A DNA stretch of 23,095 nt, from IMG/VR virus record IMGVR_UViG_3300010150_000186, positions 1 through 23,095 of that record. The stretch is one strand, 5' to 3'. The DNA comes from a virus. This document shows, in pieces, positions 14,336-23,095 of this stretch. Under the pieces are notes generated by a model, which was not told the DNA's origin, ran no database searches, and saw nothing but the letters and a program-made list of their open reading frames with translations. The position numbers and the translations under genes were made by a program. Each line of letters starts with the position of its first letter. Within the stretch, counting starts at the first letter, position 1.

Positions 14336-15013
14336 ATGTATAATATGTTTTATATATACGCATATTTGCGCAAAGACGGCACACCTTACTATATTGGTAA
14401 GGGTAAAGACAATCGAGCATTCTCTAATACTGGTAGAGCTTTCAGGCGACCAAAAGATGAAAATCGTATTGTTATAATGGAATCAAACTTGACTGAGTTA
14501 GGTGCTTTCGCATTAGAGAGAAGATATATAGAATGGTATGGTCGTAAAGATTTAGAAACTGGCACCCTACACAATCGCACGGATGGTGGTGACGGTATAC
14601 ACGGATACAAACACTCACCTGAGTCCATAAAAAAGATGAGTGAAGCACATAAGGGCAAAAAGCTTTCTGAAGAGCATAAAAGAAAAGTGAGTGATGCTCT
14701 TAGTGGTAGAAAGCTTTCTGAAGAACATAAAAGAAAAATGAGTGAGTTACGCAAGGGTAAAAAGCTTTCTGAAGAGCATAAAAGAAAAGTGAGTGATGCT
14801 CTTAGTGGTAGAAAGCTTTCAGAAGAGCATAAAAGAAAAGTGAGTGATGCTCTTAGTGGTAGAAAGCTTTCTGAAGAACATAAAAGAAAAATGAGTGCTG
14901 CTCAAAAGGGATTCAAACAAGAAATCGTAACTTGCCCTTATTGTCAAAAAACTGGTGGGAAAAACATTATGATGAGGTGGCATTATGAAAACTGTAAACA
15001 AAAAAGAACTTAG
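14336..15013 (+). CDS. GIY-YIG homing endonuclease with NUMOD3-like repeats and zinc finger
   Basis: 225 residues. GIY-YIG catalytic domain: FYIYAY (5-10), YYIGKG (18-23), catalytic Arg27, metal-binding Glu61 in [10 protein letters not shown] and Asn80 in [13 protein letters not shown]-contact region follows: a degenerate NUMOD3 unit ([15 protein letters not shown]) and five 17-residue units of KLSEEHKRK (109-193). A C2HC zinc finger closes the protein: Cys200, Cys203, His216, Cys220, in the CPYC...RWHYENC form common to phage endonucleases. It begins two bases after uvsW with no clear SD, so translation may depend on coupling. A free-standing homing enzyme would spread into uvsW-region alleles lacking it. 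Confidence 0.93.
14660..14914 (+). repeat. Five tandem 51-bp units in the endonuclease gene
   Basis: Units at 14660, 14711, 14762, 14813 and 14864, each beginning AAGCTTTC(T/A)GAAGA. Units 1, 3 and 4 encode the same 17 residues ([17 protein letters not shown]) with near-identical DNA; units 2 and 5 diverge in the last third. Each unit starts with a HindIII-type AAGCTT. Confidence 0.93.
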
Positions 15014-16248: not shown

Positions 16249-17301
16249 ATGAAAATTGCTCTACTGAACGATACCCATTGCGGCATTCGTAACTCTGGTG
16301 ATATCTTTCTTGATAATGCTGCTAAATTTTATGATGAAGTGTTCTTTCCTTATGTGAAAGAGCATAATATCAAGCAGATTGTTCATTTAGGAGACTACTA
16401 TGACAACCGTAAAGCAATCAATATCAAAGCTTTACACCACAATAGAAAGCACTTTCTTGAGCCTATGCGAGAATTGGGAATTAGAATGGATATTATTCCC
16501 GGTAATCATGATACTTATTATAAAGATACCAATAATCCAAACTCTCTCAAGGAGCTACTCGGGTTCTTTATCAATGAAGTTGCAATCATTGAAAAAGCCA
16601 AAGTATTGACATATGATAACCTCAAGTTTGCCTTGGTGCCTTGGATAAATAAAAGTAACTATGAAGAAACTATGGATTTTGTCCGTAACTGTAAGGCGGA
16701 TATTTTAGGTGGTCACCTTGAACTAAGTGGGTTTGATATGATGCGTGGCCTTAAAAATGAACACGGGATGGACCCTTCCCCATTTAAAAGGTTTGATATG
16801 GTTTTTTCTGGTCACTACCATACAAAATCTAATATTGATAATATTCATTATCTTGGCACTCAACTAGAATTCTTCTGGTCTGATGCTGGTGATAAGAAGC
16901 ATTTTCATGTTTTAGATACAGAAACCCGTGAGCTATCAGCAATTCACAACCCACATACTCTCTTCAAAAAAATTGTTTACAATGATGAAAAATACGAGTA
17001 TAATAGTGTTCAGAATTTGAAAGATAAGTTTGTAAAAGTAGTTGTGGTAAAGAAAACTAATCCTAAGATGTTTGAAGACTTTATTGATATGATTCAAGAG
17101 CAAGACATTCATGAACTGAAGATTGCTGAGAACTTTGATGATGTTTTGTCTGATGTTGATGATGCTAAGATTTCTTTAGAAGACACCACAACACTGCTAG
17201 ATAGTTATGTAGATGCTATTAGAACTGATCTAAGTAAAGATAGATTGAAAACTGATATGCGAAATCTCTACAATCAAGCGCAGACATTGGAATTAGTATG
17301 A
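16249..17301 (+). CDS. 47: Recombination endonuclease subunit gp47 (SbcD/Mre11-like)
   Basis: 350 residues (T4 gp47: 339). Calcineurin-like phosphoesterase motifs: D-x-H at NDTH (7-10), GDYYD (48-52), GNHD (85-88), GGHLE (154-158) and SGHYH (187-191), all with metal-binding residues intact. With gp46 it forms the Mre11-Rad50-type exonuclease that resects DNA ends for recombination-dependent replication, and it degrades host DNA. It begins one base after gp55. A four-base overlap (ATGA) couples it to the next small gene. Here gp46 is separated from gp47 by about 4 kb of other genes. Confidence 0.96.
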   Translation: MKIALLNDTHCGIRNSGDIFLDNAAKFYDEVFFPYVKEHNIKQIVHLGDYYDNRKAINIKALHHNRKHFLEPMRELGIRMDIIPGNHDTYYKDTNNPNSLKELLGFFINEVAIIEKAKVLTYDNLKFALVPWINKSNYEETMDFVRNCKADILGGHLELSGFDMMRGLKNEHGMDPSPFKRFDMVFSGHYHTKSNIDNIHYLGTQLEFFWSDAGDKKHFHVLDTETRELSAIHNPHTLFKKIVYNDEKYEYNSVQNLKDKFVKVVVVKKTNPKMFEDFIDMIQEQDIHELKIAENFDDVLSDVDDAKISLEDTTTLLDSYVDAIRTDLSKDRLKTDMRNLYNQAQTLELV

Positions 17302-17528
17302 AGAGATATTCTCTTAAAGGATTTATTGAGGTAGTTGAAAGAGCAGACATTATCTATGGTCAGGTAACACTTAATGCAGCAGATAGAGTTACTGCTCGTA
17401 TTAAAAAGAAAACTCTTTTAGCAAGTCTCAAAGCAATTAGGAAACCTTCTCTTTATCAGGAAGAAATTGGATACTATGGTGATTTTCAATTTGATCATAA
17501 AGGCCGCAAGATACTAAAGGTACTATGA
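17298..17528 (+). CDS. Unknown small protein between gp47 and oxygenase
   Basis: 76 residues, basic, no membrane segment. It starts MKRYSLKGFIEVVERADIIYGQVT and ends GDFQFDHKGRKILKVL; the middle has an Arg/Lys-rich helix (RVTARIKKKTLLASLKAIRK). The overlap with gp47 by four bases and with the next gene by four bases indicates coupled translation. I do not recognise a family; its place in the recombination operon makes a nucleic-acid-related role possible but unproven. Confidence 0.75.
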   Translation: MKRYSLKGFIEVVERADIIYGQVTLNAADRVTARIKKKTLLASLKAIRKPSLYQEEIGYYGDFQFDHKGRKILKVL

Positions 17529-18112
17529 TGGAAATAAAAAATTTTTTAGATAATGATATTTTTTCAGAATTTTTTAAAATTGCATATATAATCGATTCAT
17601 CTTCAACTCTTCCGTGTTTAAAAAACAACTGGTATTACACTAGTGATGGTAAACGTGGAAATATCACAAGATTTTACACAGTAACTAAAGAAAGTGATAA
17701 TGTTCTAGAGCAAGAGTTTCACCCTGAATTTGAAAAAGATATTCAAGAACAAATATATTTTTGTTTAAAAAAGGTTTTAGAAAATTATTCTGACAAGATA
17801 GAACAAGCTGGAAAATCTATGGTTGGTAAAAATTTTGATATAGGGGAAACTAAAATTGAATTCCAATACACAGATACTCTTAAATCTCACCGTCCACATA
17901 AACATGATGAAGATTTAAATGGCACGATTTATGTCTATCCAAAAGAGGCAAAAGGTACAATATTTTTTGAAATGGACCATGAACATATTATCCCTTGGGA
18001 AATGAATAAATGTTGTTTTCATACAAAAAACATTTTACACACTTTCGAAAATGATTCGGAATATAATAAAAGATTTACTATAAACTTTTTTGTGAATAAA
18101 AAGGTGCTATAA
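17525..18112 (+). CDS. Probable 2-oxoglutarate/Fe(II)-dependent oxygenase
   Basis: 195 residues. The C-terminal half has the layout of a double-stranded beta-helix oxygenase: a metal motif around HRPHKHDED (122-130), the strand GTIYVYP, the turn KGTIFFE, the 'NKCCFHTKNILHTF' strand with the distal His172, and Arg183 in KRFTINFF, placed to bind the 2-oxoglutarate carboxylate. The canonical H-x-D is not exact: His127-x-Glu129 or a shifted His/Asp pair would be needed. Such enzymes hydroxylate proteins or small molecules and are frequent in marine T4-like phages; the substrate here is unknown. Two adjacent ATGs (17525, 17528) are possible starts. It is slightly more AT-rich than its neighbours. 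Confidence 0.62.
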   Translation: MMEIKNFLDNDIFSEFFKIAYIIDSSSTLPCLKNNWYYTSDGKRGNITRFYTVTKESDNVLEQEFHPEFEKDIQEQIYFCLKKVLENYSDKIEQAGKSMVGKNFDIGETKIEFQYTDTLKSHRPHKHDEDLNGTIYVYPKEAKGTIFFEMDHEHIIPWEMNKCCFHTKNILHTFENDSEYNKRFTINFFVNKKVL

Positions 18113-18372
18113 TGACAGAAGATATTTTTGACTTTGGTTTTACCGCAGTTTCAGAAGAAGAATTAGAAGTTGTTCAAAAGACTGCTGCAAGCGCAGAAGA
18201 AGCTGCTGCTACAGCAACGTCTTATGAAGACAAACTAAACAAACTCTACAATGCCATCCTCCCACTTCTCTCTAACCTCAAACTTAACCCTGAAAAGGAT
18301 TATATCTATTGGCCTAATCGCACAGCAAAAGTTGAACAATTTGAAGATATGATTGCTAATATTATCAAATAA
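18112..18372 (+). CDS. Conserved small protein of T4-like marine phages
   Basis: 86 residues. It has an acidic N-terminus with a short hydrophobic motif (EDIFDFGFTAV), an Ala/Glu-rich helix (residues ~20-40), and a compact C-terminal part 'LYNAILPLLSNLKLNPEKDY' followed by IYWPNRTAKVEQF. The NPEKDYIYWPNR segment is one I recall as strongly conserved among marine T4-like phages near gp46/gp47. Function not known. The N-terminal D-I-F-D-F-G-F would suit binding to a hydrophobic pocket such as that of the sliding clamp (speculation). It overlaps the oxygenase stop by one base (TAATG); AAGGTG is the SD. Confidence 0.75.
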   Translation: MTEDIFDFGFTAVSEEELEVVQKTAASAEEAAATATSYEDKLNKLYNAILPLLSNLKLNPEKDYIYWPNRTAKVEQFEDMIANIIK

Positions 18373-18378
18373 AACTAT

Positions 18379-18452
18379 GCGGGTATAGTATAATGGTATT
18401 ATAGAAGCCTTCCAAGCTTATGATAGGAGTTCGATTCTCCTTACCCGCTCCA
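18379..18452 (+). tRNA. tRNA-Gly (anticodon UCC)
   Basis: A 74-base cloverleaf. The seven-base acceptor arm GCGGGTA (18379-18385) pairs with TACCCGC (18442-18448), followed by T and an encoded CCA. The D-arm contains AATGG, the anticodon loop is CTTCCAA in a GAAGC/GCTTA-type stem, and the T-arm has GTTCGATTC. It closely resembles bacterial tRNA-Gly(UCC). It would read GGA/GGG. No introns or gaps. Confidence 0.95.
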
Positions 18453-18469
18453 CTCTAACCCCTTCACCT

Positions 18470-18487
18470 GTAGGTATAATAACCTAC
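18470..18487. promoter_or_regulatory. Hairpin GTAGGT-N6-ACCTAC before the PiT gene
   Basis: GTAGGT (18470-18475) and ACCTAC (18482-18487) form a perfect six-base stem around ATAATA. The left arm and loop also contain TATAAT (18475-18480), but no good -35 lies upstream. It sits 18 bases after the tRNA and 17 bases before the PiT start, so it could be an operator on a -10 element, a processing site downstream of the tRNA, or a 5' mRNA stem. Confidence 0.45.
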
Positions 18488-18504
18488 TAAAAAGGAAAAA
18501 TAAT

Positions 18505-19455
18505 ATGGACTATATTTCAATCTGGATGGTCGTAGGTTTTCTACTTGCATCCTACTCAGTAATCGCCAACGATTCTGTTCAGACGCTAGGAACATGGATC
18601 GCTTCAAATCAAAAAACAAACCGATTAATTATGTGGGGTGCAGCGTCAGCAGTCCTACTCTTTACTATCTGGTTCGGCTGGTACAGCAATGGGGGGGATA
18701 TCTCCTACGGTCGACTCAACAAAATTCCTTTTCAGGAAATTCAATGGTATCATGCACTCGCTCCGGCAGTACTTCTTGTACTGACTAGGTTCGGTGTTCC
18801 TGTATCTACTTCATTCCTTGTACTGTCTGCATTTGCTTCAACGTTCATCTTGGAGAAAATGCTGGTTAAGTCTATTATGGGATATGCCATTGCTGCTGTA
18901 TCCGCATACGGTATCTGGTTTATCATTAGTAAACTGTTAGACGAATCAGAACCTGTAAAAGATAATCATCGAAAATATTGGGTGGTTGCTCAGTGGGTAA
19001 CTACAGGATTCCTCTGGTATACATGGCTCAGTCATGATATGGCAAATATTGCTGTGTTCCTACCACGGGTAGTCCCTATTGAAATGATGTTCGCAATCTC
19101 TATCATCTTTGTAGCTGGTCTATATTGGATGTTTAGAGAGAACGGCGGACGAATTCAGAACGTTGTTATTAGTAAGCATAATACACGTTATGTTCGTTCC
19201 GCTACTATTATTGATTTGTTTTACTTCCTGATCCTCTGGATTTTCAAAGAAGTAAACGATATTCCAATGTCCACAACTTGGGTGTTCATTGGTCTCCTAA
19301 CAGGACGTGAGTTGGCTATTGCTACATTCACTCAGAAGCGTAAGTTCAAGACAGTCTTCCCGCTTGTCGGTAAAGACTTCTTTAAGATGATGATTGGACT
19401 CGCCGCCTCTGTTGTGATTGTGGTTCTTATCCACTCATTCTTGCAACCTCAATAG
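18505..19455 (+). CDS. PiT-family inorganic phosphate permease
   Basis: 316 residues with about 8-10 hydrophobic helices. The internal duplication of the PiT family is visible. Repeat 1 has IANDSVQTLGTWIASN (20-35) and GVPVSTSF (97-104); repeat 2 has SHDMANIAVFLPR (176-188) and DIPMSTTW (252-259). These match the two G-x-N-D-x-x-N signatures and the two P-(V/M)-S-T-(S/T) turns that build the phosphate/cation site. Each signature has one Asn replaced: the second in repeat 1 (Gln26) and the first in repeat 2 (His177), so it belongs to a divergent subfamily. It should insert in the host inner membrane and import phosphate (or metal phosphate) driven by an ion gradient. SD AAGGAA precedes ATG; a terminator follows. 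Confidence 0.85.
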   Translation: MDYISIWMVVGFLLASYSVIANDSVQTLGTWIASNQKTNRLIMWGAASAVLLFTIWFGWYSNGGDISYGRLNKIPFQEIQWYHALAPAVLLVLTRFGVPVSTSFLVLSAFASTFILEKMLVKSIMGYAIAAVSAYGIWFIISKLLDESEPVKDNHRKYWVVAQWVTTGFLWYTWLSHDMANIAVFLPRVVPIEMMFAISIIFVAGLYWMFRENGGRIQNVVISKHNTRYVRSATIIDLFYFLILWIFKEVNDIPMSTTWVFIGLLTGRELAIATFTQKRKFKTVFPLVGKDFFKMMIGLAASVVIVVLIHSFLQPQ

Positions 19456-19466
19456 AGGTACATCTG

Positions 19467-19500
19467 AAGGGGGAGTGTAAAAATTCCCTCTTTTTATTTT
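19467..19500 (+). terminator. Hairpin terminator after the PiT gene
   Basis: AAGGGGGA (19467-19474) pairs with TCCCTCTT (19485-19492) with one G-U pair around a ten-base loop, followed by a T-rich tail (TTTATTTT). It separates the permease from the binding-protein gene. Confidence 0.7.
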
Positions 19501-19529
19501 AAATATACTAAACAAGGAAACTGCAAACC

Positions 19530-20633
19530 ATGCTAAAGAAAATCTTTGCATCCCTCACCCTCTCTATTGCAACTGCAACTGCTGCATTTGCTGAAACCAA
19601 AGTAGGGTTCATCTATGTAGGTCCGATTGGAGACCTTGGATGGACTTACCGACATGATGTTGGTCGTCTTGCTGTAGAAGAAGCCTATGGTGCAGACGTG
19701 TCTACTACCTATCTGGAAATGGTCCCAGAAGGACCAGAAGCAGTTGAAGCCATTACACAACTGGCAGAAACTGGACACGATATTATTTTCACTACCTCTT
19801 TTGGTTACATGGACGCAACGAATGAAGTTGCTGCTAACTACCCAGACGTGGCTTTCGAGCATGCTACTGGTTATGTCCGTGATACTGATAACATGGCAAC
19901 CTTCTCCGCACGATTCTATGAAGGTCGTGTAGTTCAAGGTTTCATTGCTGCTAATATGACTGAATCTAATAAGATTGGTTATATTGCATCTTTCCCTATT
20001 CCAGAAGTAGTGCGTGGTATTAACGCATTTATGCTGGAAGCACAGAAGCACAATCCAGATATTGAAGTAGAAATTATTTGGCTCTACACTTGGTTTGACC
20101 CTGCAAAAGAAGCAGCAGCCGCACAAGCATTGATTGATGAAGGTGCAGATATTATCGTACAGCATACTGACTCACCTGCACCTGTGCAGATTGCAGAAAA
20201 GAATGGCGTCTATGCATTTGGTCAGGCTTCGAATATGTCTCGGTTTGGTCCTAATGCGCACCTCGTTTCTATTGTAGATGATTGGGATACTTACTATGTT
20301 GATCGTGTAGGTGAAGTAATGAACGGCACTTGGACTGGTGGTGATACTTGGTGGGGTTTCACTAAAGACGGTAAAGGTGGTGAAGTCGGCATGGTTGCAC
20401 TTGAAAGTTACAACACAGCCGCAATGGGTGCAGGTCTTGTGCAGCAAGCACAGGTACTTGAAGCATCATTGGCAAATGGTGATCGACATGCATTCCCATG
20501 TGAAGGTCTGTTGAAGCAAGATGGTTCTGTTCCTGATGAGTGTGCTGCTGGTGCAGAACATTTGGATGACTGGCCAACTCTGCTGTCTATGGATTGGTAT
20601 GTAGAAGGTATTGAAGCATCACTGCCGAACTAA
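19530..20633 (+). CDS. Periplasmic BMP-family substrate-binding protein (PnrA/BmpA-like)
   Basis: 367 residues. A Sec signal peptide is clear: Lys3-Lys4, a hydrophobic core to about 19, and A-F-A|E cleavage after Ala21. There is no lipobox Cys, so it would be soluble in the periplasm. The mature protein follows the BMP fold: KVGFIYVGPIGDLGWTYRHD (25-44), 'HDIIFTTSFGYMD', 'FSARFYEGRVVQGFIAANMT', 'GYIASFPIPEVVRGINAF' and 'GADIIVQHTDSPAP'. Relatives feed ABC importers for purine nucleosides or bases. No ABC permease or ATPase gene is in the window, so it would have to work with the host importer. SD AAGGAA precedes the start. The gene looks recently acquired and intact. Confidence 0.9.
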   Translation: MLKKIFASLTLSIATATAAFAETKVGFIYVGPIGDLGWTYRHDVGRLAVEEAYGADVSTTYLEMVPEGPEAVEAITQLAETGHDIIFTTSFGYMDATNEVAANYPDVAFEHATGYVRDTDNMATFSARFYEGRVVQGFIAANMTESNKIGYIASFPIPEVVRGINAFMLEAQKHNPDIEVEIIWLYTWFDPAKEAAAAQALIDEGADIIVQHTDSPAPVQIAEKNGVYAFGQASNMSRFGPNAHLVSIVDDWDTYYVDRVGEVMNGTWTGGDTWWGFTKDGKGGEVGMVALESYNTAAMGAGLVQQAQVLEASLANGDRHAFPCEGLLKQDGSVPDECAAGAEHLDDWPTLLSMDWYVEGIEASLPN

Positions 20634-20638
20634 CCAAT

Positions 20639-20815
20639 TTGTATGTTGTCATCCATTATGATGACAAAGACTGGTGGGCGCCTCCTACAACGGTGTCCAC
20701 CAGACTGCCTTACTATGAGGCAATGGATGAATATGATAGACTACAAAAGAATAGTGACCCAAATGACACATATCAGGTATTCATGGTAGATTGTAAAATA
20801 ATTGGAAAAAAGTAG
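20639..20815 (+). CDS. Unknown 58-residue protein with TTG start
   Basis: Frame 2 reads a plausible small protein: LYVVIHYDDKDWWAPPTTV, RLPYYEAMDEYDRLQKN, DTYQVFMVDCKIIGKK. There is a beta strand, a helix with A-M-D-E-Y-D and a final strand. No SD is seen; TTG at 20639 is the only standard start near the 5' end and lies five bases after the stop of the binding-protein gene, so coupling is possible. Alternatively its true start was lost when the transporter genes were inserted. Two inverted repeats (20646-20667, 20671-20703) lie within its first third. The general look, a short Y-x-V-x-x-Y-[DN] protein, recurs in T4-like phages, but I do not recognise a family. Confidence 0.5.
   Translation: MYVVIHYDDKDWWAPPTTVSTRLPYYEAMDEYDRLQKNSDPNDTYQVFMVDCKIIGKK
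20646..20703. repeat. Two consecutive inverted repeats after the BMP gene
   Basis: TTGTCATC (20646-20653) and GATGACAA (20660-20667) form a perfect eight-base stem with a six-base loop. CTGGTGG (20671-20677) and CCACCAG (20697-20703) form a second seven-base stem with a 19-base loop. No U-tract follows either. Confidence 0.6.
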
Positions 20816-20847
20816 TTGACATACCTTTCAGACTATGCAACTATAAA
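20816..20847 (+). promoter_or_regulatory. Probable sigma70-type promoter before a small gene
   Basis: A perfect TTGACA (20816-20821), directly after the stop of the preceding frame, is followed by TATAAA (20842-20847). The 20-base spacer is longer than the usual 16-18, so strength is uncertain; an activator or another -10 could be involved. Confidence 0.5.
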
Positions 20848-20877
20848 GCATAACCTCTTCACTGAAAGGAAAACAAA

Positions 20878-21057
20878 ATGACCAACATTCGTTATCCACA
20901 CTACCTTGTTGAAGTCTTCAACAAAGCAGGTGAAGTGATTCATACAGAATATGAATACTCAGGTCATGCAGCATCAGATGAAGCGATGTATTACCGAAAC
21001 AAGTATTGGGATAAGGTTGAGATTATCGTCTCCTACATTGCGAAAGAAGAGAAGTGA
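20878..21057 (+). CDS. Unknown 59-residue protein
   Basis: A short frame with a clear SD (AAAGGAAA, ~9 bases before ATG), its own promoter candidate at 20816 and its own terminator at 21069. It reads MTNIRYPHYLVEVFNKAGEV, then IHTEYEYSGHAASDEAMYY and RNKYWDKVEIIVSYIAKEEK: an open alpha/beta pattern of strand, helix, strand. The monocistronic layout argues strongly that it is expressed. I do not recognise the family. Small early proteins of this type in T4-like phages often act on host enzymes, but nothing here shows a target. Confidence 0.75.
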   Translation: MTNIRYPHYLVEVFNKAGEVIHTEYEYSGHAASDEAMYYRNKYWDKVEIIVSYIAKEEK

Positions 21058-21068
21058 CATAAATGCAA

Positions 21069-21107
21069 CACCCCCTAGAGAAATGCCTTTAGGGGGTTGT
21101 TTTTTTC
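21069..21107 (+). terminator. Intrinsic terminator after the 59-residue gene
   Basis: CCCCCTA (21071-21077) pairs perfectly with TAGGGGG (21090-21096) around a 12-base loop, followed by TTG and a run of seven T (21100-21106). Confidence 0.9.
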
Positions 21108-21117
21108 TCAATAATGA

Positions 21118-21134
21118 TTACATTAATAATGTAA
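21118..21134. promoter_or_regulatory. 17-bp palindrome before the 113-residue gene
   Basis: TTACATTA-A-TAATGTAA is a perfect inverted repeat with a one-base centre. It lies between the terminator at 21069 and the SD of the next gene (AAGGA, 21142-21146). Symmetry and position suggest a protein-binding operator. Confidence 0.5.
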
Positions 21135-21154
21135 GAGAAAAAAGGAATGAACTT

Positions 21155-21496
21155 ATGAAAATGACCGAGAATGTATTCAACCAACTGTCGCAAGACTTTC
21201 ACACTATTCTTACTGAATACTTCCGTTGTTCCATATCAGACGATCCTAAAGAAGCAATGCTAGATGCTTGGGTAGTTTTCAAGGAAGTATGGCAACAGCG
21301 TGGTTATGATGATACACATCCACGGTGGAATCATGGTATTCGGGTGCTGTCACCTGATTGGTCAGACAAGTGGAATATAGATGGTAGTCAAACGGGATAC
21401 CTTGCTTGGGTCTATGACAATGAAGGTGACCCAATCCATGACGATCATATTCAGACTGCACTAAAGAAAATCGTTTCGAAATATCATAAGGCATAA
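21155..21496 (+). CDS. Unknown 113-residue protein
   Basis: The start ATG at 21155 has AAGGA eight bases upstream and gives MKMTENVFNQLSQDFHTILTE. The same frame is open further upstream to 20951, but that extension runs across the terminator and out-of-frame through the preceding gene, so it is rejected. The protein has an N-terminal helical part (to ~45) and a Trp/Asp-rich second half: DTHPRWNHGIRVLSPDWSDKWN, then GYLAWVYDNEGDPIHDDHIQTALKK. No catalytic motif or membrane segment is recognised. The gene sits alone between a terminator and the gp46 promoter. Confidence 0.75.
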   Translation: MKMTENVFNQLSQDFHTILTEYFRCSISDDPKEAMLDAWVVFKEVWQQRGYDDTHPRWNHGIRVLSPDWSDKWNIDGSQTGYLAWVYDNEGDPIHDDHIQTALKKIVSKYHKA

Positions 21497-21504
21497 AAAA
21501 ATGA

Positions 21505-21533
21505 TTGACTTCCTAATCAACTTGATATATAAT
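21505..21533 (+). promoter_or_regulatory. Sigma70-type promoter before gp46
   Basis: TTGACT (21505-21510), a 17-base spacer and a perfect TATAAT (21528-21533). Start of transcription would be near 21540, giving a leader of about 10-30 bases before gp46. Confidence 0.85.
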
Positions 21534-21567
21534 ACTCTTCATTATGTTTGAGTGATTAGGAGAAGTC
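21507..21567. repeat. Long inverted repeat spanning the gp46 promoter and SD
   Basis: GACTTCCTAATCA (21507-21519) is matched by TGATTAGGAGAAGTC (21553-21567): 13 base pairs with a two-base bulge (AG/TC). The left arm lies in the promoter spacer; the right arm contains the gp46 SD (TAGGAG, 21557-21562). Confidence 0.8.
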
Positions 21568-23095
21568 TTATCATTAAGTTTCATTCTGTTCAGTATCGGA
21601 ATTTTTTAAGTACCGGGAACAATTTTACAAAGATTGAATTAGACAAGGCACCTACTACTTTGATCGTAGGTGCTAATGGTGCAGGTAAATCTACTATGCT
21701 AGATGCACTGTCATTTGGTCTATTCGGAAAGCCTTACAGAAACATCAACAAACCACAACTTATCAATACTATTAATAGCAAGGATTGTGTGGTCGAGGTC
21801 GAGTTCTCCGTCGGTCCTAGCAGGTATAAAGTTATTCGGGGTATCAAGCCTAACGTGTTTGAAATTTACAAGAATGGTGAGGTTATTAATGAATCTTCCC
21901 ATGCTAAAGAATTTCAGAAACTACTAGAGCAAAACATTCTGAAACTAAATCACAAATCGTTTCATCAGATTGTAGTGCTTGGCTCATCCTCTTTTATTCC
22001 TTTCATGCAACTGACTGCTGCGCATAGACGTGAGGTTATTGAAGACCTCTTGGATATTAATATCTTTTCTAAGATGAATATTGTTCTGAAAGACAATATT
22101 GCTAGTCTGAAGGATAAAATCCGTGATGCTGCACATCAGGTAGATATTGTCAAGAATAAGATTGATGTTCAACGCAAATACATTAGTGATATTAAGAATC
22201 TAAACGAGGAAAAGAACCGTGAGAAGCAAATTGAAATCAAGACGCAGGAAGATACAATTGAGCAGATCAATCTTGAAAATGAAGAAATACAAGAAACTCT
22301 TGCAGCAAAGTATGATCAGGTCTCAGACCGATTAGTAGAAGCAGGTCAGTCTTTTCAATCTGACCAACACAAAAAGACGCAACTTAAAACGGAGATGAAT
22401 AGACTTGTTAAAGAGGATAAGTTCTTTCAAGACAATGACGTTTGCCCGACTTGTACGCAAGAGATTAACCAGACTATTAAAGAACAAAAGTCTAAGGGTA
22501 TCTCAGCGCAAGCGAAGAAAATCCAAAAGACGTTTCAGACGCTAGAAGAGCAACTGTTTGCTGGTAAAGCATTGGTAGATGAACTTCAAGAGCAGAGTAA
22601 GCAGTCTATGGAATTACATGCTGCTATGCGTGACAATAATACTAAGATTAGTATGTCTCGCAAACTTATTCAAAAGTTAGAGCAAGAGATTACTGATACA
22701 TCTGATAGTAAAGATAATATTGTTCAGGCTAACAAAGACCTTGAAGACTTTATTGATGAGAAGGATGGTCTACTTACACATAAACTAGAACTGTCTGAAG
22801 AATACGACTACAGCAGTGTGATTGCTGATATGCTGAAAGATACTGGTATCAAGACCAAGATTATTCGGCAATATCTGCCTGTGATGAATAAACTGGTTAA
22901 TCAGTATCTACAGACACTGGACTTCTTTGTTCATTTTGAATTGAATGAAAGTTTTGGTGAGACTATTCGTTCACGGCACCGTGATAGTTTTTCTTATGAC
23001 TCTTTCAGTGAAGGTGAGAAGCAACGCATTGACCTTGCACTGCTGTTTACATGGAGACAGATTGCTAAGATGAAAAACTCTGTAGCAACCAATCT
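21552..23095 (+). CDS. 46: Recombination endonuclease subunit gp46 (SbcC/Rad50-like), 3' end cut by window
   Basis: About 514 residues are visible (T4 gp46: 560). The N-terminus has IKFHSVQYRNFLSTGN and Walker A GANGAGKST (40-48, counted from the GTG). Then come the Q-loop region 'FHQIVVLGSSSFIPFM', a long coiled-coil with the CPTC zinc hook (Cys298, Cys301), and the ABC signature FSEGEKQRIDLALL (485-498). Walker B lies beyond the end. With gp47 it forms the end-resecting nuclease complex. No ATG exists at the 5' end: an in-frame TGA at 21549 is followed by GTG at 21552 without SD. The SD TAGGAG at 21557 would instead serve ATC (21570) or ATT (21573), giving M-I-K-F or M-K-F, close to family starts. 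Confidence 0.95.
   Translation, partial: MIRRSLIIKFHSVQYRNFLSTGNNFTKIELDKAPTTLIVGANGAGKSTMLDALSFGLFGKPYRNINKPQLINTINSKDCVVEVEFSVGPSRYKVIRGIKPNVFEIYKNGEVINESSHAKEFQKLLEQNILKLNHKSFHQIVVLGSSSFIPFMQLTAAHRREVIEDLLDINIFSKMNIVLKDNIASLKDKIRDAAHQVDIVKNKIDVQRKYISDIKNLNEEKNREKQIEIKTQEDTIEQINLENEEIQETLAAKYDQVSDRLVEAGQSFQSDQHKKTQLKTEMNRLVKEDKFFQDNDVCPTCTQEINQTIKEQKSKGISAQAKKIQKTFQTLEEQLFAGKALVDELQEQSKQSMELHAAMRDNNTKISMSRKLIQKLEQEITDTSDSKDNIVQANKDLEDFIDEKDGLLTHKLELSEEYDYSSVIADMLKDTGIKTKIIRQYLPVMNKLVNQYLQTLDFFVHFELNESFGETIRSRHRDSFSYDSFSEGEKQRIDLALLFTWRQIAKMKNSVATN

Follow-up and report, generated by a model that had tools for sequence, protein, structure and literature searches.

Phage genes for phosphate acquisition are known mainly from cyanophages. 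In marine T4-like cyanophages, pstS (and phoA) cassettes are variably present, with hot spots that often contain tRNAs and cassettes that are flanked by endonucleases, and no single regulatory solution was found for pstS (Sullivan et al. 2010, PMC3037559). PHO4 genes were reported from algal viruses (Monier et al. 2012, PMC3429862), pit from soil phages (PMC10987575) and a two-piece tmRNA from phage Melnitz (PMC9004378). Our initial literature search returned nothing relevant on phage PiT together with pstS, on BMP as a phage gene or on an RNA motif at phosphate transporters. Here, we analyzed the IMG/VR virus record IMGVR_UViG_3300010150_000186, the whole contig of which (23,095 nucleotides) is called the window. 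It stems from a T4-like phage, as indicated by the hallmark genes for Gp23 (E 2e-146), the portal protein (Portal_T4, E 4e-175), UvsW (UvsW_N) and gp46/gp47. Between gp47 and gp46 lie three small open reading frames (ORFs), a tRNA-Gly(UCC), a 316-amino-acid (aa) membrane protein resembling PiT phosphate permeases, a 367-aa BMP-type binding protein, three more small ORFs and two good terminators. A preliminary description had placed an island of this composition here, and its position and content were borne out, with gp47 (PHROG 100) and gp46 (PHROG 77) confirmed as flanks. We consider it probable that a T4-like phage infecting a marine alphaproteobacterium carries here an exchangeable island of auxiliary metabolic genes for nutrient uptake.

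Relatives were fetched through PiT, BMP, gp46 and gp47, and the gp47-gp46 interval was then mapped (loci are designated L plus a number). As stated before, the two genes usually lie close together: they abut or overlap in ~28 relatives (44-71% gp47 or gp46 identity), including the empty site of L109, where the stop of gp47 overlaps the start of gp46, and a single unrelated ORF separates them in L191. In the window clade, the interval always contains tRNA-Gly, followed by one of several loads, namely pstS alone (L106/L186 and, as far as the contig reaches, L185), PiT and BMP (window, L004, L006 and L007) or PiT, pstS and BMP (L009-L012). Contigs beginning within PiT hold PiT and BMP (L087) or PiT, pstS and BMP (L084 and L088), and a gene resembling that for asparaginyl-tRNA synthetase (AsnRS) can follow the load together with tRNA-Asn. 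A third uptake gene, pstS, is found at this place in about half of the relatives. In L109, where this site is empty, tRNA-Gly and PiT occur in another part of the genome, next in line after tRNA-Leu, tRNA-Met and a permuted tmRNA; the PiT of L109 is 97% identical to that of the window over the 116 residues before the contig end, compared with merely 68-71% for gp47 and gp46.

The empty site, the alternative loads at one place and the second location of PiT in a near relative show that the island is exchangeable cargo. It has the traits of an auxiliary metabolic cargo island: close relatives differ in what they carry at the site, and a host-derived gene (BMP tree) is under purifying selection (dN/dS, the ratio of nonsynonymous to synonymous substitution rates). 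We give very little credence to the alternative that tRNA-Gly, PiT and BMP form an old, ancestral backbone block that was lost in relatives. The same order in most window-clade members and the backbone-like dN/dS would suit such a block, but gp47 and gp46 adjoin in all outgroups, the loads differ, the PiT of L109 occupies another site and the genes have still other surroundings in L013 and L093. Nor are the genes fixed in all close relatives, given pstS only in L106/L186 and the empty site of L109, and the initial view of cargo rather than backbone was upheld.

The 316-aa ORF escaped the family models, with no match in Pfam at E 0.01 (so that the PHO4 cut-off was not reached), in NCBIfam at E 1 or in PHROG, none in the PDB by phmmer and none among 50,697 phage records. 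Its family numbers 350 relatives in IMG/VR, and relatives with 54-62% identity occur in five of 289 alphaproteobacterial genomes; a sixth genome yielded a short match to part of the protein. Alignment of the family profile with 25 PHO4 proteins by hhalign gave a probability of 86% and E 4.7e-6 over 234 columns, covering both halves with the motifs in register, and the sole match of the profile in the whole PDB was the Thermotoga phosphate transporter 6l85 (E 3.7e-6). Because of these two results we name it a remote, short PiT-type permease that would transport phosphate; the identity given in the preliminary description was thus reached by profile comparison, not through Pfam, NCBIfam or PHROGs. 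The protein contains two inverted half motifs, ANDSVQTLGT..PVSTSF and HDMAN..PMSTTW; relative to the canonical GANDxAN/PxSTTH, ND/HD and PxST are kept and invariant in the family, N is replaced by Q in the first motif, and H by F and W. The family is strongly conserved, and median dN/dS values of 0.06 for PiT, 0.07 for BMP and 0.05 for gp47 indicate strong purifying selection. The PHO4 family PF01384 was not found in the three metagenome-assembled genomes (MAGs) nearest by BMP and one Pelagibacteraceae genome, all of which may be incomplete.

It is unlikely, but deserves some weight, that the PiT-like permease carries something other than phosphate, such as another anion or a metal-phosphate complex, within a general nutrient island. 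Scores below the Pfam PHO4 model, changed conserved motif residues and an only remote profile similarity would allow for this. In two phage groups, however, pstS directly adjoins PiT, namely in relatives of the window together with L015-L017 (89% PiT identity) and in L049, L438 and L447 of a large PiT clade, and one kind of RNA leader is found 5′ of either gene. The position of pstS beside PiT in separate phage groups supports phosphate as the substrate.

The BMP protein scores 181.7 bits with Pfam Bmp (cut-off 24.1), and its nearest structures are PDB 3s99 (E 8e-105), with a purine in the site, and AtzT 6pi5 (E 3e-89), with guanine bound. The purine pocket is largely kept: Y45 is replaced by W38, S90, F91, E159 and W188 are retained, and H212/D214 match the adenine-modelled 3s99. 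A Sec signal peptide (..ATAAFA/ET) is present, without a lipobox. The protein belongs to the purine-base (adenine/guanine) branch, nearest to 3s99/AtzT and not to the PnrA/TmpC nucleoside type, so that the nucleosides first suggested as its ligand give way to purine bases as the predicted ligand. Bacterial relatives lie in operons with the ATPase and two permeases of an ATP-binding cassette (ABC) transporter, and further neighbors vary by group (XdhB/XdhC, adenosine deaminase or phosphoribosyltransferase). In the closest bacterial MAGs (L253:7254-9671), the gene 3′ of the purine-type BMP operon encodes a DAO/GCV_T enzyme of the sarcosine/dimethylglycine dehydrogenase type in place of purine enzymes. 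No ABC permease was noticed among the ORFs of the window, and the host's permease would therefore be needed.

In a quick tree, which has only approximate likelihood ratio (SH-aLRT) support and long branches for L063 and L080, the phage BMP proteins form three separate lineages: that of the window, sister to three marine alphaproteobacterial MAGs (69-71%), that of L063 and L080, and that of L098-L100 within Gemmobacter relatives. Judging from this topology, BMP was captured by phages at least three times. Each lineage includes contigs with a phosphate gene, PiT in the first two and pstS on the same contig in the third. Long PiT contigs outside the clade that carry BMP are L020, L023/L024, L063/L066 and L080, compared with 0 of 50 T4-like control contigs without PiT; L023/L024 and L063/L066 are near-copies and not independent draws, which leaves approximately four to five independent cases. 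PiT is also present in L093, which was fetched by its BMP gene, and L098 combines BMP with pstS. The pairing of two transport genes pointed out at the start thus recurs in other phage lineages. In L063, a 2-oxoglutarate-Fe(II) oxygenase gene (isopenicillin-N-synthase-like, L063:4738-5595) stands directly 3′ of the phage BMP gene.

Binding proteins might also act as surface or periplasmic decoys, for instance by blocking superinfecting phages that use a host transporter as receptor. Superinfection-exclusion proteins occur in phages, and some PiT operons also hold an outer-membrane beta-barrel protein, but we judge this function very unlikely in view of the kept ligand pocket, the strong purifying selection and the presence of a complete permease alongside.

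Viral PiT genes have in their 5′ regions a hairpin located 33-38 bases before the start codon, which in the large PiT clade consists of TGAGC, a 5-bp stem, the loop GGTAAA(A/G), the other stem arm and AAGCA. Among 29 distinct hairpin sequences, every stem cell pairs and all five pairs are changed on both sides; the covariation score was 0.63, compared with 0.22 for shuffles and ≤0.12 for slid partners. A covariance model yielded 48 matches in 1.09 Mb of fetched PiT/BMP loci, nearly always 5′ of PiT and once 5′ of pstS (the pstS-PiT pair in L049), and control loci totalling 0.86 Mb gave no match. IMG/VR was also scanned with a pattern that imposed pairing at only one of the five stem positions; at least 122 sites were found, and all matches listed pair 5/5. 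The genes 3′ of the listed sites were PiT (at least 110), pstS (at least two), outer-membrane-type genes (at least five, one with Pfam Phage_OMP) and a 55-aa ORF (at least one), besides at least four contig edges; a second scan yielded further sites of the same kind. In the examples opened, the non-PiT genes stand 5′ of PiT. Barrel-like outer-membrane proteins directly upstream of viral PiT were seen at L430:5870-7308, L453:1950-3605 and L409:6579-8096, and in L430 and L453 the barrel gene and PiT each have their own hairpin leader.

The motif is lacking at L080, L052 and L028. The window hairpin differs in its loop and escapes model R1, which was built on the other PiT clade; we regard this hairpin as a divergent member of the leader family on sequence grounds because L004, L008, L011, L015 and L018 are intermediate. 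No Rfam family matched the leader at gathering, a permissive scan of the L023 leader gave chance-level matches only, and a leader search of the 289 alphaproteobacterial genomes, made without a positive control, was empty. A DNA operator was rejected, as the arms vary with pairing kept and position and strand are fixed relative to the start codon, and so was a mere terminator, as a T run is absent after the hairpin. This hairpin, which precedes the PiT genes of many marine viruses, is not known to have been described before. Its fixed loop and free stem suggest that it may bind a protein or ligand and thereby control translation or the stability of the mRNA. We see an even chance that the leader is a new cis-acting RNA that coordinates phage phosphate-uptake genes of all three cell layers (inner membrane with PiT, periplasm with PstS and outer membrane with the barrel protein), perhaps as the target of a protein or as the sensor of a phosphate-linked ligand, with a divergent form in the window.

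At the island edge, tRNA-Gly is found with every kind of load, and tmRNA or tRNA-Asn occupies its place in other phages. A permuted tmRNA lies directly 5′ of PiT-pstS-BMP in L013 and directly 5′ of BMP in L093, and tRNA-Gly accompanies PiT to another site in L357. It is rather improbable that these RNA genes are true attachment sites of integrase-driven insertion. PiT does start 28-98 bp behind tRNA-Gly, tmRNA or tRNA-Asn in differing contexts, and in L013 the leader that is shared between contexts sets in directly behind the 3′ end of the tmRNA; however, no integrase, attachment site or duplicated tRNA end at the far side was noticed, and outside the clade an RNA gene lies ≤400 bp upstream at just 5 of 77 loci (1.7 expected). 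The tRNA and tmRNA genes are cassette companions, not a proven insertion site, and the proposed tRNA hot spot is supported only in part: tRNA-Gly is constant across loads, also travels with PiT and is replaced in other phages.

Permuted alphaproteobacterial-type tmRNA genes adjoin PiT/BMP at L013:7617-7973, L093:7460-7930, L357:5893-6272 and L021:9219-9551. A manA RNA (Rfam RF01745, 63.1 bits) is located 5′ of the tmRNA-PiT region at L013:5616-5788. A class II aminoacyl-tRNA-synthetase-like protein of 271-279 aa (Pfam tRNA-synt_2, nearest to AsnRS and its aspartyl counterpart AspRS) is encoded in the island of L012 (9152-10062) and in the unrelated phage lineage of L063 (6087-7017) with 75% identity; it adjoins a phage tRNA-Asn, is too short for an anticodon-binding domain and has no PDB match by phmmer. 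The NUMOD3 gene of the window lies between uvsW and the gp47 block, and its presence varies among relatives; a NUMOD3 relative (E 4e-11) was found at the left edge of the tRNA-Gly-PiT cassette of L019.

Taken as an exchangeable uptake island, the locus would let the infecting phage make a phosphate permease, PiT, that works without a partner and to which sister phages would add the phosphate-binding protein PstS. The phage BMP, as a periplasmic purine-base binder, would pass its ligand to the BMP-type ABC permease of the host, and the phosphate and purines drawn in would serve phage DNA synthesis, so that the joint supply of DNA precursors imagined earlier may apply. Recombination between phages would move the island as a module, together with the tRNA or tmRNA gene on its left, and free-standing homing endonucleases may assist in this. 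Several points weigh against this reading. We infer transport, the substrates in vivo, the use of a host permease and the mode of movement from sequence; PiT is too diverged for Pfam, with canonical positions altered (N to Q; H of STTH to F and W); and the sister MAGs are candidate hosts by BMP kinship, not proven hosts. Furthermore, o17298 and o18112 lie 5′ of gp47 in L109/L191 but 3′ of gp47, ahead of the cargo, in the window clade, so that the site is the product of more than a single insertion. The contigs are fragments, and gene absence is uncertain outside intact intervals.

The features of the window are listed in Table 1. Two good terminators agree with the suggestion that the island has terminators of its own; terminators similar to the one 3′ of PiT precede BMP in most relatives, L007 being without one. 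Own promoters were weakly supported: promoter-like sites are not enriched (26, compared with a mean of 23.5 in shuffles), and only that of gp46 is conserved across the clade. No Pfam or PHROG family matched o17298, o17525 or o18112, and o17525 is restricted to the window and its near-identical relatives. Relatives of the 58-aa ORF also occur at other sites (L093, L095). In the window clade, gp46 has a conserved ATC start (ATT in L097; region 21544-21580) with a normally spaced Shine-Dalgarno sequence and, in most members, no in-frame standard start 5′ of it, and the island-free L109 and L248 have ATG at exactly this position. The non-AUG start of this recombination nuclease gene accompanies its separation from gp47.

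Table 1 Features in and around the gp47-gp46 interval of the window.
Feature	Position	Strand	Basis or remark
NUMOD3 protein (homing-endonuclease type)	14336..15013	+	Pfam NUMOD3 E 2e-24
gp47 (SbcD-like nuclease subunit), left flank of site	16249..17301	+	PHROG 100 E 7e-95
Small ORFs o17298, o17525, o18112	17298..18372	+	Relatives' map; no family matches
tRNA-Gly (UCC)	18379..18452	+	ARAGORN; Rfam tRNA 63.9 bits
PiT leader hairpin GTAGGT-ATAATA-ACCTAC, immediately 5′ of Shine-Dalgarno sequence	18470..18487	+	Regarded as divergent form of viral PiT leader hairpin
Viral PiT-like (putative phosphate) permease, 316 aa	18505..19455	+	Profile-profile to PHO4; PDB 6l85; dN/dS
Intrinsic terminator 3′ of PiT	19466..19493	+	Rho-independent terminator search
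BMP periplasmic binding protein, 367 aa, predicted purine-base type	19530..20633	+	Pfam Bmp PF02608 E 2e-53
58-aa ORF, 3′ of BMP in most relatives (60-85% identity)	20639..20815	+	Relatives' map
59-aa ORF	20878..21057	+	Kept in L012, L091
Strong intrinsic terminator	21070..21097	+	Rho-independent terminator search
113-aa ORF, ATG at 21155	21155..21496	+	Kept in L012, L091, L101
Sigma70-type promoter of gp46	21505..21533	+	11/12 consensus positions; conserved across clade (relatives aligned)
gp46 (SbcC-like), runs off contig end	21570..23095	+	PHROG 77 E 2e-146; ATC start

The island points to a parallel, modular phosphate solution in phages linked to heterotrophic alphaproteobacteria, based on a family of permeases that is present on hundreds of marine viral contigs yet escapes current models and isolate collections. 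A predicted purine-binding protein was taken up by phages at least three times in the company of phosphate genes, and if uptake holds true, these phages bring in phosphate as well as bases for DNA. The RNA leader with its covarying stem offers a handle on the control of uptake genes and a tag to find more of them.

Like the cyanophage pstS cassettes, the island brings a phage-borne phosphate uptake gene of variable presence into T4-like phages; unlike them, it has alphaproteobacteria as likely hosts (by BMP kinship), lies between gp47 and gp46 and adds a partner-free permease and a purine-binding protein, and the wider PiT family shares an RNA leader. With the PHO4 genes of algal viruses and the pit genes of soil phages it has in common a virus-borne transporter of the PiT superfamily, but those are recognized by PHO4 or pit models, unlike the short (316 aa) protein family described here, which marine phage contigs commonly encode. 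The BMP protein falls into the same branch as AtzT and the Brucella protein 3s99 (PMC6834077), with the stacking aromatics, Ser, Phe and Glu kept and His212/Asp214 as in 3s99; in contrast to these, it is phage-borne, has no ABC permease of its own and has a predicted ligand. As in Melnitz, a permuted alphaproteobacterial-type tmRNA is present in marine phages, but here it borders a PiT/BMP cassette.

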